Assembly (NCBI RefSeq): GCF_030388665.1
Contig: NZ_CP128846.1
Location: 2,768,001-2,832,000 of the forward strand
Length of the DNA stretch: 64,000 bases
Reading direction: 5' to 3'
Source of the DNA: Streptomyces flavofungini
GTDB taxonomy: Bacteria; Actinomycetota; Actinomycetes; Streptomycetales; Streptomycetaceae
Within the stretch, counting starts at the first letter, position 1. The number at the start of each line of letters is the position of its first letter. Position numbers and translations under genes: made by a program. Below, one piece after another: positions 57,270-62,974 of this stretch. The notes beneath the pieces are model-generated. The model had not been told where the DNA came from and made no database searches. It worked only from the letters and a program-made list of their open reading frames with translations.

Positions 57270-58136
57270 ATGACAGCCACGCACTCCGACTGGCCGCTCG
57301 ACCAGACCTTCGCCTCCTCGTCGGGCGCCGTCCGCTGGACCGCCCTCGGCCCGGCCGACGCGCCCCCCGTCGTCCTGGTCCACGGCACCCCGTTCTCGTC
57401 GTACGTCTGGCGGGGCGTCGCCAGGGCGCTCGCGGGCGGACACCGCGTGTACGTATGGGATCTGCCCGGGTACGGGGCGTCCGAGATGCGGGCCGGGCAG
57501 GACGTCTCGCTGGCCGCGCAGGCCCGCGTGTTCACCGAACTGCTCGCCCACTGGGGCCTGGACGGGCAGGAGCCCCCGGCCGTCCTCGCCCACGACTTCG
57601 GCGGCTGCGTGGCCCTGCGGGCGCACCTGCTGCACGGCGCGCGCTACGCCAGGCTCGCCGTGGTCGACCCGGTGGCCCTCGCGCCGTGGGGCTCGCCCAC
57701 GTACCGGCTGCTCGGCGCGCACGCGGACGTGTTCGCCCAGCTGCCGCCCGCGCTGCACGAGGCGCTGGTGCGGGAGTACGTCGGATCGGCGAGTCACCGG
57801 GGGCTGCACCCGGCCGTGCTCGACCGGCTCGTGGCGCCCTGGTGCACGGAAGCCGGCAGGCCCGCGTTCTACCGCCAGATCGCGCAGAACGACCAGCGCT
57901 TCACGGACGAGATCCAGGGCAGGTACGGCGAGTTGGCGCTGCCCGTCCTGGTCTGCTGGGGCACCGAGGACACCTGGATCCCGGTGGCGCGCGGCCACGA
58001 GTTCGCCGGTCTCGTCCCCGGCGCGGAGCTGCGCCTGATCGAGGGCGCGGGACATCTCGTACAGGAGGACGCGCCGGCGGAACTCACGGGGGAGCTCGCG
58101 CGTTTCCTCAATGCGGGCCCTCGTACAGTGCGCTGA
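57270..58136 (+). CDS. Alpha/beta hydrolase with Asp nucleophile
   Basis: A 288-residue hydrolase. HGTPFSS (39-45) is the oxyanion loop. The elbow AHDFGG places Asp109 as nucleophile, WGTEDTWIP gives the acid, and EGAGHLVQEDAP the histidine. This is again the haloalkane dehalogenase / epoxide hydrolase type, only distantly similar to the gene at 3109. Substrate unknown. ATG 57270. Its last 29 bases overlap the convergent WYL regulator gene. Confidence 0.87.
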   Translation: MTATHSDWPLDQTFASSSGAVRWTALGPADAPPVVLVHGTPFSSYVWRGVARALAGGHRVYVWDLPGYGASEMRAGQDVSLAAQARVFTELLAHWGLDGQEPPAVLAHDFGGCVALRAHLLHGARYARLAVVDPVALAPWGSPTYRLLGAHADVFAQLPPALHEALVREYVGSASHRGLHPAVLDRLVAPWCTEAGRPAFYRQIAQNDQRFTDEIQGRYGELALPVLVCWGTEDTWIPVARGHEFAGLVPGAELRLIEGAGHLVQEDAPAELTGELARFLNAGPRTVR

Positions 58137-59148
58137 CAGCCGCGGCGGCCCGCGCCAGCTCTTCGCGGATCTCCGGCGGCGAAAGGACCTCGACGGCGTC
58201 GGAGAAGGCGAGCAGGACGCGCGCCGCCCGCCGCTCCTCGACGACGAGGCGCACGGTCACCCACTCCCCCGTGCCCTCGGCGTCCCCGCCCCGCCGCCCC
58301 TCCCCGGCCTCGCGCTCCGCCCCGTCCCCCCGGTCCGCCCCGTCCTCCTCCACGATCTCCGTGACCGCGCCCCCGTGCAGCCGCAGAAAGCGCCCGTAGC
58401 GGTCCCTGCGCACCCGCGCGGTCACGTCGATGCCGCCGGTGCGCCGCTCCACCCACTGCTTCAACGCCTCCCACACCTCCGCGAGTTCGACGCCCGGGCG
58501 GCGCCGCACCGCCTCGTCCGTCAGGCTCGCCGAGCGCACCCGGTCCGCGCGGAAGAGCTTCGGCTCGCCGTCCCGGTCGGCGACGAGGTACCAGACGCCC
58601 GCCTTCGACACCAGGCCGTAGGGGTCGAGGGTGTAGTCGCGCCCGCTTTCCGATCCGCTGTGCACATAGTTCACGCGCACCCGCAGGTCGGCGAAGACCG
58701 CGTCCTGGAGCGTGCCCAGATGGTCCAGGGGCAGCCCGGAACCGGGGCCGCGCGTCCAGCGGGAGGAGTCGACGAGGATGCGGCGGCTGGTGAGCTCGGC
58801 GGCGGGCCGGTGCGGTGCGGGCAGCGCCGCCATCACCTTGCGCAGGGCCGAGCCGATGGCCGCGTCCAGGCCGAGCGCGGCGTGGGCGCCCTGCGCGGCG
58901 AGGACGAAGAGGGCGCGGGACTCGTCGGCGGTCAGGCCCGTGACGTCGGTGCGGTAGCCGGGCAGCAGCGTGATGCCGCCGTGCCGCCCGCGCTCGGCGT
59001 ACACCGGGACGCCCGCGGCGGACAGCGCGTCGACGTCGCGGTAGATGGTGCGGACGGACACCTCCAGGCGCTCGGCGAGTTCGGGCGCGGGCACGGTGCC
59101 ACGGGTCTGGAGCAGCAGCAGGATCGAGAGCAGCCGGTCGGACTTCAC
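58108..59148 (-). CDS. WYL-domain (YafY/DeoR-like) transcriptional regulator
   Basis: A 346-residue regulator. The N-terminal HTH_11 (DRLLSILLLLQTRGTVPAPELAERLEVSVRTIYRDVDAL, in parts) is followed by a WYL domain (VRVNYVHSGSESGRDYTLDPYGLVSKAGVWYLVA, with GVWYL as the WYL motif) and the C-terminal WCX extension. An acidic Gly/Glu/Asp insert (ADRGDGAEREAGEGRRGG) near residues 285-305 is unusual. GTG 59148 is the domain start. It converges with the hydrolase gene; a regulatory link is possible but unproven. Confidence 0.88.
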   Translation of the reverse strand: MKSDRLLSILLLLQTRGTVPAPELAERLEVSVRTIYRDVDALSAAGVPVYAERGRHGGITLLPGYRTDVTGLTADESRALFVLAAQGAHAALGLDAAIGSALRKVMAALPAPHRPAAELTSRRILVDSSRWTRGPGSGLPLDHLGTLQDAVFADLRVRVNYVHSGSESGRDYTLDPYGLVSKAGVWYLVADRDGEPKLFRADRVRSASLTDEAVRRRPGVELAEVWEALKQWVERRTGGIDVTARVRRDRYGRFLRLHGGAVTEIVEEDGADRGDGAEREAGEGRRGGDAEGTGEWVTVRLVVEERRAARVLLAFSDAVEVLSPPEIREELARAAAAVSALYEGPH

Positions 59149-59303
59149 ACGGCCAAGGATCGCGCACGCACCCGATCCGACCCGGCGCACCCGATCCGAA
59201 CCGGCCCGCTCGACCCGAACCGGCCCGCTCGACCCGGCTCAGGGCGGCCCGCCCCGCTCGCCGCGCGTCCAGAAGCGACGGAAAGGGACCGTCACTTGTT
59301 CCC

Positions 59304-59322
59304 AAATTCTGCTTATGATTCG
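59304..59322. promoter_or_regulatory. LysR-site candidate 1 over the LysR promoter, probable leaderless start
   Basis: AAATTCTGCTTATGATTCG. It overlaps a -10 hexamer TATGAT (59314-59319) that lies six bases before the GTG start, so the mRNA is probably leaderless and the gene autoregulated. The same motif, reversed, occurs at 60272-60290. Confidence 0.6.
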
Positions 59323-59325
59323 ACC

Positions 59326-60231
59326 GTGTTCGACTCCCGGCACATCAGGTCCTTCCACGAAGTGGTCCGCACCGGCTCGTACTCCGCCGCGGCCCGCTCG
59401 CTCGGCTATACGCAACCGGCGATCACCCAGCAGATGAAGGCGCTCGAACGGTCCGTGGGCACGGTCCTTTTCACCCGTGTCGGCCGCCGGATGCGGCTGA
59501 CGGAGGCGGGCGAGGCACTCTCCCGGCACGCCGGTGTGATCCTCGGCAACATCGACGCGGCCCAGCAGCAGATGAACGCGATCACGCGGCTGCGCACCGG
59601 CCGGGTCAGACTGTGCGCGTTCCCGAGCGCCACGGCCACGCTGATACCGGAGGCGCTGGCCCGCCTCGCCCGCGACCACCGCGGCATCCGCGTCGAACTG
59701 CAGGAGTACGAGCCGCCGGAGTCCCTGCAGCGCCTGGTGCACGGCGACGCCGACGTCACCCTCGCCTTCACCTATCCCGGCCTGCTCGAGGAGGTGCCGG
59801 ACGAGGTCGTCGAAGTACCGCTGATGGAAGACCAGTTGACGGTCCTGATGCCCACCAGGCACCCGATGGCGCGGCGCCGCTCGGTGCGGCTCGCCGACCT
59901 GTCCGAGGAGCGCTGGATCGCCGGGTGCCTGCGCTGCCGCGCCAACTTCCTGCACGAGTGCGCCGAGCAGGGCTTCGCCCCGGACATCGCCTTCACCACC
60001 GACGACAACCTCGTCATCCAGAGCCTGGTCTCCGAGGGCCTCGGCATCGCGATGATGCCGGGCCTCGTCCTGAACTTCCTGTGCCACCGCTCGGTCACGG
60101 GCCGCCCGCTCGACCCGGCGTCGCGGCGGCAGGTGTCGGCGTACGTCCTGCGGGAGCACCTGCGCATTCCGGCCACGGCACTCGTGCTCGACGAGCTGAA
60201 GGCGGTCGCGGCCAACCGCGTGGGCTGCTGA
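59326..60231 (+). CDS. LysR-type regulator of the cysteine dioxygenase / YeiH module
   Basis: A 301-residue LysR protein. The HTH reads FDSRHIRSFHEVVRTGSYSAAARSLGYTQPAITQQMKALER (in parts). The substrate-binding domain starts at VRLCAFPSATATLIPEAL. GTG 59326 is used, with no ribosome site; a -10 box six bases upstream suggests a leaderless transcript. It is followed in the same direction by genes for a cysteine dioxygenase-like enzyme and a YeiH-type exporter. In enterobacteria the sulfite-sensing LysR protein YeiE sits beside yeiH, so a sulfite or cysteine-derived inducer is a reasonable proposal. Confidence 0.9.
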   Translation: MFDSRHIRSFHEVVRTGSYSAAARSLGYTQPAITQQMKALERSVGTVLFTRVGRRMRLTEAGEALSRHAGVILGNIDAAQQQMNAITRLRTGRVRLCAFPSATATLIPEALARLARDHRGIRVELQEYEPPESLQRLVHGDADVTLAFTYPGLLEEVPDEVVEVPLMEDQLTVLMPTRHPMARRRSVRLADLSEERWIAGCLRCRANFLHECAEQGFAPDIAFTTDDNLVIQSLVSEGLGIAMMPGLVLNFLCHRSVTGRPLDPASRRQVSAYVLREHLRIPATALVLDELKAVAANRVGC

Positions 60232-60271
60232 CCGGACCGGCCACGGGCCACCGCGTCGGCCGTTGAACGGG

Positions 60272-60290
60272 CAAAACATAAGCACTTTTT
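60272..60290. promoter_or_regulatory. LysR-site candidate 2 upstream of the dioxygenase operon
   Basis: The reverse complement reads AAAAAGTGCTTATGTTTTG and matches candidate 1 at 14 of 19 positions, including the whole core TGCTTATG. It lies 61-79 bp before the start codon, the usual activator position. Confidence 0.6.
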
Positions 60291-60350
60291 GAGGTCACGC
60301 CAAAGAACTGTCGTTGGACGTGATGGATGGGGCGGGCCGACCCTGCCGGT

Positions 60351-60932
60351 ATGACCACCCCCACCGCGCACACCCGCACCGCGACCGCCCGCCCCTGTAC
60401 GACGCCGCGCCTCGACGCGCTCGTCGCGGAGATACGCGAGGCCGTCGGCCGCGGCCTCCCCCCGGACCTGACCGCGTACCTGGTGGGCGAGCGCCTCGCC
60501 CCGCACCTGGGCACCGCCGACCTGCTCACCCCCGAGCAGTGCGAGGGCGACCCCGACCGCTACCGCCAGCACCTCCTGCACGCCGAGAGCGACGGCAGCT
60601 TCTCCCTCGTCGGCCTGGTGTGGCTGCCCGGCCAGCGCACGTCCGTGCACGACCACGTGTCGTGGTGCGTGACCGGCGTGCACGAGGGCGAGGAGCACGA
60701 GCGGCGCTACCGGCTCGTGCCCGCCGAGGACGGCGTTCCCGCCCACCTCGTCGCCACGGAGGACGTGGTGAACCCGCAGGGCGCGGTGTGCGGCTTCGCG
60801 CCGCCCGGGGACATCCACCGGGTGTGGAACGCGGGCGCGGGACGCGCGATCTCCCTGCACGTCTACGGCGCGGACATCGGACGGCTCGGCAGCAGCGTGC
60901 GCCGGGTGTACGACCTCCCGGCCGACCGCTGA
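60351..60932 (+). CDS. Cysteine dioxygenase-family thiol dioxygenase
   Basis: A 193-residue cupin. The Fe ligands expected in CDO are present: H100 and H102 (SVHDHVSW) and H156 (PPGDIHRVWN). C106 lies four residues after the HxH, near the place of the crosslinked Cys of mammalian CDO. It would oxidise cysteine (or a related thiol such as 3-mercaptopropionate) to the sulfinate with O2. ATG 60351; no strong ribosome site. Its TGA shares one base with the ATG of the exporter gene, so the pair is translationally coupled. Confidence 0.88.
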   Translation: MTTPTAHTRTATARPCTTPRLDALVAEIREAVGRGLPPDLTAYLVGERLAPHLGTADLLTPEQCEGDPDRYRQHLLHAESDGSFSLVGLVWLPGQRTSVHDHVSWCVTGVHEGEEHERRYRLVPAEDGVPAHLVATEDVVNPQGAVCGFAPPGDIHRVWNAGAGRAISLHVYGADIGRLGSSVRRVYDLPADR

Positions 60933-61996
60933 TGGCCCTGCTCGGACAGCGCCCGCCGAGGACGGCGTCGGCGCCGCGTCCGCCTGTGCCCGTCACCGGC
61001 CCCTGGCCGGGCCTCGCCCTGGCCGCGGCGGGCGTCGCCGTCGCCTGGCTGACGCACCGGCTCGTGCCGGACGTGCCGATGCTGACGGTCGCCATCGTCC
61101 TCGGCCTCGCCGCCGCGCAGGTGCCGGGTTCCCGGGTGTGGGTACGCGGCTGGGCCAGGCCCGGCCTCACCTTCGCCGCGAAGCGCCTGATGCGGGTCGG
61201 CGTGGTGCTGCTCGGCCTGAAGCTCAGCCTGCGTGATGTGCTCGGGGTCGGCTGGGCGACCGTCGCGATGGTGCTCGTGGTGGTCGCGGCGACGTTCTTC
61301 GGCACCTGGTGGCTCGGCCGGAAGCTGGGCCTGCCCGGCGACCAGCCGCTCCTCATCGCCACCGGCTACTCGATCTGCGGGGCCTCGGCGATCGGCGCGG
61401 TCAGCGACGTCTCCCGCAGCGAGGAGCGCGACACGGCCGCGTCGGTGGCGGTGGTGACGCTCTGCGGGACGCTCGCCATCGCCGTGCTCCCCCTGCTCCA
61501 GGGGCCGTTGGGGCTCACCGACGCGGAGTTCGGGCGCTGGGTCGGGGCGAGCGTGCACGACGTGGGCCAGGTCGTCGCCACCGCGCAGACCGCGGGGGGC
61601 ACGGCCCTCGGCGAGGGCGTCCTCGTCAAGCTGATGCGGGTGGCGCTGCTCGCGCCGCTGGTCGCGGGCGTGGCGATCGCGGTACGGGCCCGGCGCGCGG
61701 CCTCGGCGGCCGGGACCCCCGACGCCGGTGAGCGGCGGCCGCCGCTGGTGCCGCTGTTCGTCGCGGGGTTCGTGGCGATGGTCGGCGTACGCAGCACCGG
61801 CTGGCTCCCGGACCCGGCGCTCGACGCGGCCGGGGTCGCCCAGGAACTGCTGCTCGCCGCCGCCCTGTTCGGCCTCGGCAGCGCGGTGGACCTGCGGACG
61901 CTGGTGCGCACCGGGGGCCGGGTGGGGCTCGTGGGGCTGTGCGCATGGGTGGTGGTCGGCGGGGTGTCGTACGCGGGGGTGTGCCTGACCGCGTGA
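60932..61996 (+). CDS. YeiH-family (UPF0324) putative sulfur-compound exporter
   Basis: A 354-residue polytopic protein with about ten TMs. GLKLSLRDVL and ATGYSICGASAIGAVS are the YeiH family signatures, with a second half GASVHDVGQVVATAQTAG. YeiH proteins are proposed to export sulfate, sulfite or organosulfonates. Coupling to a cysteine dioxygenase gene suggests that it removes the sulfite, sulfate or sulfinate produced from cysteine. ATG 60932 overlaps the preceding stop (TGATG). The stop is in a 22-bp tandem repeat. Confidence 0.9.
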   Translation: MALLGQRPPRTASAPRPPVPVTGPWPGLALAAAGVAVAWLTHRLVPDVPMLTVAIVLGLAAAQVPGSRVWVRGWARPGLTFAAKRLMRVGVVLLGLKLSLRDVLGVGWATVAMVLVVVAATFFGTWWLGRKLGLPGDQPLLIATGYSICGASAIGAVSDVSRSEERDTAASVAVVTLCGTLAIAVLPLLQGPLGLTDAEFGRWVGASVHDVGQVVATAQTAGGTALGEGVLVKLMRVALLAPLVAGVAIAVRARRAASAAGTPDAGERRPPLVPLFVAGFVAMVGVRSTGWLPDPALDAAGVAQELLLAAALFGLGSAVDLRTLVRTGGRVGLVGLCAWVVVGGVSYAGVCLTA

Positions 61997-62056
61997 GGCT
62001 GCCCGGACGACCGGGTGAGGCTGCCCGGACGACCGCGTGAGCGTGCCCGGACGCGC
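61993..62056. repeat. 22-bp tandem repeat across the YeiH-type gene stop codon
   Basis: Units starting GTGAGGCTGCCCGGACGACC at 61993 and 62015, plus a degenerate one at 62037; every unit contains TGA. Confidence 0.9.
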
Positions 62057-62104
62057 GCCGCCCGGGCCGCGGAGGTCGGCCCGGGCGGGGGGGGTGCGGC
62101 TCTG

Positions 62105-62974
62105 TCAGCGCAGGCGGGCGCGGGCGAGCTGGCGGGACTGTGCCACCAGGCGGTCCGCGGAGTCCCAGACCTCGGCGTCCTCCTCCAGGAAGCCGCCGGC
62201 GAGGTTGCGGGTGGTGATGGCGACGCGCAGCGGTCCGGGAGCGGGCCTGGCCCGCACGTGGACGGTGAGCTCGATGGTGGGCACCCAGCCGGAGAGGCCC
62301 ATCTCGAACGCCGTCGGCGGCAGCGCGTCCACGGCGAGCAGCAGCGACAGCGGATCCGCGTCGCGCCCGTCGGCGAGCCCGAACCACGCCCGCATCTCGC
62401 CCTTGCCCGACGGCCGGCCGAGCGCCCAGCCGAGCGTGGACGGGTCCAGCTTCAGCCACAGCCGGTCGGCGATCGCGGACGAGCCGGGCACCGCGCGCTG
62501 CTCGGCGGGGGCGTCGTCGGCGCCGAAGCACTGGTCGACCGGGGGCAGCTGCGGGGGCTCGGCGGTCGTGCGCACGTCGTCGGGCAGGGCGTCCAGGTCT
62601 CCGTACGAGGCGAGCACGCGCAGCCGCTCGACCTCGGTGCCGTCGGCCTCGAACTGCACCAGGGAGGCCTGTCCGGTGGAGAGGCCGCGTCCCGTGCGCA
62701 CGGTCTCGGTGCGGATCACGGCGGGACCCGGGTCGGACGCCGTCAGATAGTGCGCGGAGATCGTGAACGGGTCGGAGTGCGGCAGCGCGTCCGCGAGGGC
62801 GCGGCCGACGACGGCGAGGAGATAGCCGCCGTTGACGGCGTTGACGATGGTCCAGCCCGCGGAGAGGTCGATGTCGTAGACGCCGGGCTCCCGCCGGGCG
62901 ACCGCCGTGTCGCGGTCGAACTCGCTGTCCCCGACCGTGGCGCGCACCGTGGGCGCCGCTGCTGTGTCAGCCAT
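62105..62974 (-). CDS. TesB-type acyl-CoA thioesterase (double hot-dog)
   Basis: A 289-residue protein. The N-terminal hot-dog (SAGWTIVNAVNGGYLLAVVGRAL) and the C-terminal one (GWVPTIELTVHVRARP, FLEEDAEVWDSADRLVAQSRQLA) match the TesB-like thioesterase group common in actinobacteria, which hydrolyses acyl-CoAs. ATG 62974 gives MADTAAAP; no ribosome site is seen. A TACGTT -10-like box six bases upstream would allow a leaderless transcript, though the TRIC gene ends only 25 bp before it on the same strand. Substrate unknown. Confidence 0.88.
   Translation of the reverse strand: MADTAAAPTVRATVGDSEFDRDTAVARREPGVYDIDLSAGWTIVNAVNGGYLLAVVGRALADALPHSDPFTISAHYLTASDPGPAVIRTETVRTGRGLSTGQASLVQFEADGTEVERLRVLASYGDLDALPDDVRTTAEPPQLPPVDQCFGADDAPAEQRAVPGSSAIADRLWLKLDPSTLGWALGRPSGKGEMRAWFGLADGRDADPLSLLLAVDALPPTAFEMGLSGWVPTIELTVHVRARPAPGPLRVAITTRNLAGGFLEEDAEVWDSADRLVAQSRQLARARLR

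Follow-up and report, generated by a model that had tools for sequence, protein, structure and literature searches.

The window analysed here, a 64-kb stretch of Streptomyces flavofungini DNA, is part of a 9.36-Mb genome, and its closest named relatives at the locus under study are Streptomyces. It contains a three-gene module made of a LysR-type regulator, a thiol dioxygenase of the cysteine/3-mercaptopropionate dioxygenase family and a predicted membrane exporter of the YeiH/PSE family, with two copies of a predicted operator, one ahead of the LysR gene and the other, inverted, ahead of the dioxygenase gene (Table 1). The dioxygenase stop codon and the yeiH start codon overlap in a TGATG (TGA/ATG, 60930-60934), in line with the coupled pair described in a first-pass annotation of this DNA.

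We compared this arrangement across 110 loci (the best 80 of 373 contig relatives plus 30 loci from 121 genomes of the genus; among them are the window's own genome as well as some duplicates). The three genes follow each other on one strand in the order LysR-dioxygenase-YeiH in 104 of the 110 loci, a LysR orthologue lies upstream of the dioxygenase on the same strand in 109, and the TGATG is found at the dioxygenase stop in 69. L026, from strain SCUT-3, is the sole locus in which LysR lies beyond YeiH, on the opposite strand. The module is widespread in Streptomyces and is also found in some Micromonospora. The distribution of the dioxygenase is patchy: matches at E <= 0.001 are present in 41 of the 121 genus genomes (five of them weak) and matches at E <= 1e-20 in 21 of 296 genomes of the class. 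All these loci are related by descent, and conservation counts are thus not counts of independent events.

Table 1. Features of the LysR-dioxygenase-YeiH module and of the related LysR locus. Positions refer to the window, except in the last row.
Feature	Position	Strand	Remarks
LysR-type regulator	59326..60231	+	301 aa, GTG start; PF00126 and PF03466
Thiol dioxygenase, cysteine/3-mercaptopropionate dioxygenase family	60351..60932	+	193 aa; PF05995
YeiH/PSE-family membrane exporter (predicted)	60932..61996	+	354 aa; PF03601
Operator A (predicted), CCCAAATTCTGCTTATG	59301..59317	+	overlaps LysR -10; exact GCTTATG in 83/102 loci
Putative LysR -10 box TATGAT	59314..59319	+	TATGAT-like box stays by the start where the operator is displaced
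Codons for Cys201-x2-Cys204-x7-Cys212, LysR effector domain	59926..59961	+	conserved in 150-151/151 LysRs
Operator B (predicted), CTCAAAAAGTGCTTATG on the minus strand	60277..60293	-	-74 to -58 from dioxygenase ATG; exact core in 93/102 loci
Conserved promoter-proximal block AGAACTGTCGTTGGACGTGATGGA	60304..60327	+	GTTGGAC in 97/102 LysR-dioxygenase intergenic regions
Sister LysR in the window's genome, paired with a MOSC gene, with CCAAGAGTCGCTTATG	C1 3740624-3741511

The predicted operator, CCCAAnnTCnGCTTATG, spans 17 bp, has TGCTTATG as its core and is an asymmetric inverted repeat. This core occurs exactly twice in the window (59310 on the plus strand, 60277 on the minus strand) against 0.11 occurrences expected in shuffled sequences, and 14 times in the whole genome. 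The first-pass annotation had placed such a shared core over the LysR -10 box and, reversed, before the dioxygenase, and had named conservation in orthologous loci as a check. Both points hold. Among 102 non-redundant loci (LysR 70-100% identical, with L001 (partial), L026, L073 (truncated) and six duplicates left out), exact GCTTATG precedes LysR in 83 and, reversed, the dioxygenase in 93, with 77 loci having both; the prediction of one operator common to the two promoters is well supported by this conservation. In six of the 102 loci (L015, L018, L021, L022, L025 and L046), GTTTATC replaces GCTTATG on the LysR side, and five of these six retain GCTTATG on the dioxygenase side. The site is larger than TGCTTATG: the full LysR-side consensus reads CCCAAatTCyGCTTATGrTT, and in 65 anchored loci the 24 positions preceding it carry less than 0.5 bit each, against up to 2.84 inside it. 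On the dioxygenase side, where the information per position was measured on 43 loci, the site is accompanied by a second conserved block, AGAACTGTCGTTGGACGTGATGGA, not reported in the first-pass annotation.

Conservation of the -10 box alone was considered as a reason for the conservation of the LysR-side site, and rejected. Sixty-five of the 83 LysR-side sites end 8-9 nt ahead of the start codon, over the -10, and the other 18 have moved away, to a distance of 21-40 nt from the start on its upstream side; since 17 of these 18 retain a separate TATGAT-like box in place, the operator word is conserved in its own right and not as part of a -10. On the dioxygenase side, the distance from the operator core to TTGGAC is 29-30 nt in 89 of 93 loci, a spacing that puts operator B of the window between -74 and -58 relative to the ATG, where LysR activators usually have their recognition site. 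The block AGAACTGTCGTTGGACGTGATGGA could possibly combine a -35 element (TTGGAC) with a second LysR contact. The leaderless LysR gene proposed initially is plausible: the TATGAT box ends 6 nt before the GTG at 59326, but there is no canonical -35, and a strict sigma-70 promoter scan of 59200-62200, like a terminator scan of the same interval, returned nothing, this TATGAT box included. The dioxygenase mRNA may be leaderless too, its ATG at 60351 following a block that reads GACGCTGCC in the 43-locus consensus. No Rfam element was found in 59000-62200.

The regulator carries both the HTH_1 and the LysR_substrate domains and is thus a member of the LysR-type family. Its effector domain contains a trio of cysteines that was followed in 151 LysRs (the 110 of the module group, 34 of a sister group described below and seven distant ones linked to dioxygenase genes): Cys201 and Cys204 are present in 151/151 and Cys212 in 150/151, across all three subgroups. 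In the window's genome, which has 49 PF03466 matches in total, the pattern C..C.{7}C was found in the LysR frame of only two of the 30 LysRs examined, namely the module LysR and its sister. A third candidate, L234, was discarded because the motif lies in a 419-aa frame and not in the 345-aa LysR frame; the open reading frame picked as LysR lacks it. Alignment with E. coli OxyR pairs Cys201 with Cys199 and Cys212 with Cys208, the two OxyR residues that form its redox switch, and places Cys204 in a two-residue insertion. Since overall identity to OxyR is 25%, we infer no more than a candidate redox or persulfide switch; the module LysR also differs from OxyR in the spacing of its cysteines and in its targets, which are not peroxide genes.

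The analogy with the enterobacterial regulator YeiE, drawn in the first-pass annotation, is not supported in that form. The module LysR scores 75.2 bits on the YeiE model NF040889 (cut-off 480) and is 26% identical to E. coli YeiE, which has no cysteine at the place of the trio. The two systems do resemble each other in organization, as in Salmonella, E. coli and Cronobacter a LysR gene adjoins a gene of the YeiH family and is autoregulated, and YeiH confers sulfite resistance (PMC12880088). However, the module is a tandem array with a thiol dioxygenase gene in between, and its LysR is not an orthologue of YeiE.

The enzyme belongs to the CDO_I superfamily (PF05995, 29.9 bits against a cut-off of 23), and the iron ligands of cysteine dioxygenase (CDO) ascribed to it in the first-pass annotation are confirmed: His100, His102 and His156 are invariant in 111/111 close homologues, as is the triad Ser168-His170-Tyr172. 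Other active-site residues point to another member of the superfamily. Gln73 and Arg185, both invariant in 111/111, correspond to Gln63 and Arg168 of the 3-mercaptopropionate dioxygenase (3MDO) of A. vinelandii (Av3MDO), the latter across a three-residue gap; the phmmer alignment ends before placing Arg185. Gln is the mark of the Gln-type enzymes where Arg-type enzymes have Arg, and Arg168 is the carboxylate ligand (PMC8050391). The module enzyme thus shows the residue pattern of Gln-type 3MDOs and not the Arg of Arg-type CDOs. Its best solved relatives are 3MDOs (4wvz, 6xb9 and 3uss), followed by 4qma and, more weakly, by mercaptosuccinate dioxygenase; no mammalian CDO was among the solved relatives returned. 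The entry 6xb9 was deposited as cysteine dioxygenase type I, yet it is the Av3MDO of PMC8050391. The 3MDOs of P. aeruginosa and A. vinelandii share with the module enzyme the Gln, the Arg, the three His and the Ser-His-Tyr (PMC8050391), whereas the module enzyme differs from them in the three-residue insertion before Arg185 and in its native Cys106 (invariant in 111/111), where Av3MDO has Gly96; chain 4wvz has Cys at this position and 3uss has Gly.

These observations bear on the possibility that the module handles cysteine overflow, with a true cysteine dioxygenase induced by excess cysteine or by a sulfur oxide. The PF05995 match and the NCBI name of the relatives, cysteine dioxygenase, agree with such a role, as does the induction of the cdo genes of Streptomyces SCUT-3 on cysteine-rich keratin (PMC7181669). 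Moreover, the kcat of Av3MDO on cysteine is similar to that on 3-mercaptopropionate, with lower affinity for amino-bearing substrates (PMC8050391), so that cysteine stays a possible substrate. Against this, Gln occupies the position of the carboxylate-binding Arg of CDO while Arg185 stands at the 3MDO position, the best structures are 3MDOs, some JGI records name relatives that are 75-83% identical 3-mercaptopropionate dioxygenase, and two further CDO_I proteins of the genome score better (E values of 1.2e-45 and 1.4e-18, against 2.6e-6), both of which seem by eye to carry Arg at the Gln73 position. The gene of the best-scoring of these paralogues (L122) is followed by a gene with a rhodanese domain (PF00581). 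The original label of cysteine dioxygenase is therefore unproven, and we regard the cysteine overflow scenario as possible but rather unlikely.

The third protein, a YeiH-type exporter in the first-pass annotation, scores 212.1 bits on PF03601 against a cut-off of 24.5. It reaches 133.9 bits on TIGR00698, below the subfamily cut-off of 232.6, and is 30% identical to E. coli YeiH; its putative cargo is thus suggested by analogy. In Salmonella, yeiH is under the control of YeiE and a yeiH mutant is sulfite-sensitive (PMC12880088). A sequence search returned no solved structure related to YeiH.

On the basis of the observed gene order, operator and cysteine conservation and active-site residues, we infer a direction of regulation, an inducer, a substrate and a cargo, which together would make this locus an autoregulated thiol-stress and sulfite-efflux module, a reading to which we give a probability of roughly 55%. 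LysR would bind operator A over its own -10 and thereby limit its own synthesis, as the position of the site suggests. It would also bind operator B, whose centre lies near -66 relative to the dioxygenase-yeiH operon, and make a second contact in the conserved block near -35, activating the operon upon a signal, as the usual LysR geometry implies. The signal would probably be a thiol or a reactive sulfur species acting on Cys201/Cys204/Cys212, at the site of the OxyR redox cysteines. The dioxygenase would then convert a small carboxylated thiol (of the 3-mercaptopropionate type, or cysteine) into a sulfinate. In this family of reactions, sulfinates decay or are cleaved to sulfite. YeiH would finally export the sulfite, by analogy with its role in the sulfite resistance of Salmonella.

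Several observations weigh against this reading. The exact core is missing on the LysR side in 19 of the 102 loci and on the dioxygenase side in nine; it is found on neither side in three (L021, L061 and L101) and likewise in L169, outside the 102. YeiH was not found beside the dioxygenase in five of 110 loci, in four of which only about 1.5 kb downstream was covered. Cys201 and Cys212 are 11 positions apart, against 9 in OxyR, and with the 25% identity a metal-binding or structural role of the trio is possible. Among 13 more distant loci (L169-L181, dioxygenase less than 65% identical), YeiH was found within about 1.5 kb in none, and no LysR relative was found in five. In the available text of the SCUT-3 study, the cdo genes are tied to no loci and the exporter named is TauE, induced about 2-fold (PMC7181669). 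In S. shaoguanensis, induction of two cdo genes comes only at 96 h, sulfite is present in trace amounts, and the authors of that study make the case for a mechanism independent of sulfite (PMC12763843).

In seven of the 13 distant loci LysR is divergent from the dioxygenase gene, and in one (L169) it lies upstream in tandem; the occurrence of LysR-dioxygenase pairs without YeiH suggests that these two genes came together before YeiH joined them. Arg occupies the Gln position in 6 of 12 distant homologues. The actinobacterial loci L170-L174, L176 and L181, in which a distant LysR diverges from a CDO-family gene, are devoid of the module operator; by eye, most of these divergent loci have a TTRGACG block similar to AGAACTGTCGTTGGACGTGATGGA, and another site seems present.

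The residue pattern and the closest structures of the enzyme would also suit the catabolism of a thiol acid from the environment, such as 3-mercaptopropionate or mercaptosuccinate, that LysR would sense, as in Advenella mimigardefordensis. There too a LysR gene adjoins a thiol dioxygenase gene in the mdo and msdo systems, and a lysR single mutant is unable to grow on mercaptosuccinate; for the lysR adjoining mdo, the only strain examined was an xre-lysR double mutant, which does not grow on dithiodipropionate (PMC5373536). However, the Advenella mdo cluster includes a desulfinase and the putative sulfate exporter Pse is encoded elsewhere in that genome (PMC5373536), whereas no desulfinase, CoA-transferase or thiol-acid uptake gene was found among the seven proteins scanned between 57270 and 63677, and the cysteine trio of LysR suggests thiol chemistry over plain acid binding. 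We consider such a catabolic role doubtful.

The operator was also sought beyond the module. The relaxed motif CAANNNNNGCTTATG occurs four times in the 9.36 Mb, at operators A and B, at the sister LysR and at one place elsewhere, against two for a reversed control. An earlier search of the genome by mismatch pattern gave 269 and 306 places, and nothing is concluded from it, as operator B and the sister site (at most 1 mismatch) were not among the matches listed. Over the 121 genus genomes, there are 45 exact matches to the full motif, in 36 genomes, with six for the reversed control; 36 of the 45 lie at the dioxygenase module (by coordinates) and five at the sister LysR, while for the remaining four (G002, G006 C6, G024 and G082) no relative of the three module genes was found in the stretches examined.

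The sister LysR is a paralogue, 45-49% identical, that in five genomes carries this operator at the corresponding position. Its best match reaches E <= 1e-100 in 113 of the 121 genus genomes, most of which lack the dioxygenase module; at 1e-70 the number rises to 117, four of them with weak or partial matches. In 34 sister loci, a divergent MOSC gene was detected in 33 (no MOSC hit in L200), an identity confirmed by Pfam in five loci, and a CTTATG core lies within 40 nt in 33 (missing in L204). This LysR-MOSC locus (L208, and G000:C1:3740624-3741511 in the window's genome) is present in most Streptomyces genomes searched; to our knowledge, no function has been described for it. The recognition helix QPA[IV][TS]QQ[MI]K is shared by at least 103 of 110 module LysRs and by all 34 sisters, whereas the seven distant LysRs divergent from a dioxygenase have QP[SA][VI]SHHL and intergenic regions without GCTTATG. 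This co-variation of helix and operator argues for LysR as the protein that recognizes the operator, and for possible cross-talk between the two paralogues. By eye, a single operator serves both promoters of the divergent LysR-MOSC pair; in the tandem module each promoter has its own copy, oriented towards its gene as it is in the divergent arrangement.

Given the nearly identical helix and the shared operator, both present in the window's genome, another regulator, chiefly the MOSC-linked LysR, might use the sites and control both loci in place of the module LysR. We find this improbable: in 109 of 110 loci the module LysR gene is the one directly upstream, the sister occurs mostly in genomes without the module, and operator A sits on the module LysR's own promoter. 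More tentatively still than the autoregulated module itself, one may imagine that the two paralogues, through one operator, join the dioxygenase-exporter operon and the MOSC (molybdenum/sulfur) protein in a single two-regulator sulfur circuit, in which a C-x2-C-x7-C family of actinobacterial LysRs senses thiols or sulfane sulfur via a switch at the OxyR position.

Two neighbouring genes may be mentioned. A WYL-domain regulator (58108-59190) is divergent from the LysR gene, and some 3.6 kb upstream of LysR, on the minus strand, lies a gene for a class-V aminotransferase (PF00266; 54543-55730) whose sequence resembles a NifS/IscS cysteine desulfurase.

Some physiological data come from feather-degrading Streptomyces. 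On feather medium, SCUT-3 releases sulfite and induces cdo1 50.2-fold and cdo2 8.3-fold (PMC7181669). The SCUT-3 genome has two CDO_I genes, at 3496527 and 3837293 of its chromosome, one of which is the module gene of L026, whose dioxygenase promoter keeps CCATAAGC and GTCGTTGGAC; the module gene is therefore probably one of the induced pair. The cysteine overflow and sulfur export circuit first proposed is partly supported: Salmonella YeiE/YeiH (PMC12880088) and the feather induction in SCUT-3 (PMC7181669) make a sulfur circuit plausible in which the exporter is of the sulfite type, but the naming of the enzyme as a cysteine dioxygenase is not supported in that form. Sulfite might even be exported for attack, breaking the disulfides of keratin. 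A precedent is the pairing of a cysteine dioxygenase with a sulfite pump in dermatophytes, which are eukaryotes not known to have LysR control of it and whose Ssu-type pump is unrelated to YeiH. Thiol oxidation is coupled to sulfite efflux there (as cited in PMC7181669), as it would be in an operon joining a thiol dioxygenase to a sulfite-type exporter, and the SCUT-3 feather data fit such a use (PMC7181669). However, the module is widespread in Streptomyces and present in some Micromonospora that there is no reason to think keratin degraders, and S. shaoguanensis degrades feather with merely trace sulfite (PMC12763843), which makes this purpose unlikely.

Our search of open-licence PMC papers turned up, in the text available, no description of a LysR-dioxygenase-YeiH module. 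The circuit would represent a new variant of LysR control over sulfur oxidation and efflux, its surprising parts being the cysteine-bearing regulator and the paralogue on the same operator. The literature examined does not, in the available text, establish how Streptomyces controls sulfite release, for instance on feathers. The proposed autoregulated module offers a candidate sensor and a defined operator for thiol overload in these bacteria, suggests YeiH, beside TauE, as an exporter candidate in strains that bear it, and draws attention to LysR-MOSC, common among Streptomyces, as a second locus with this operator word.

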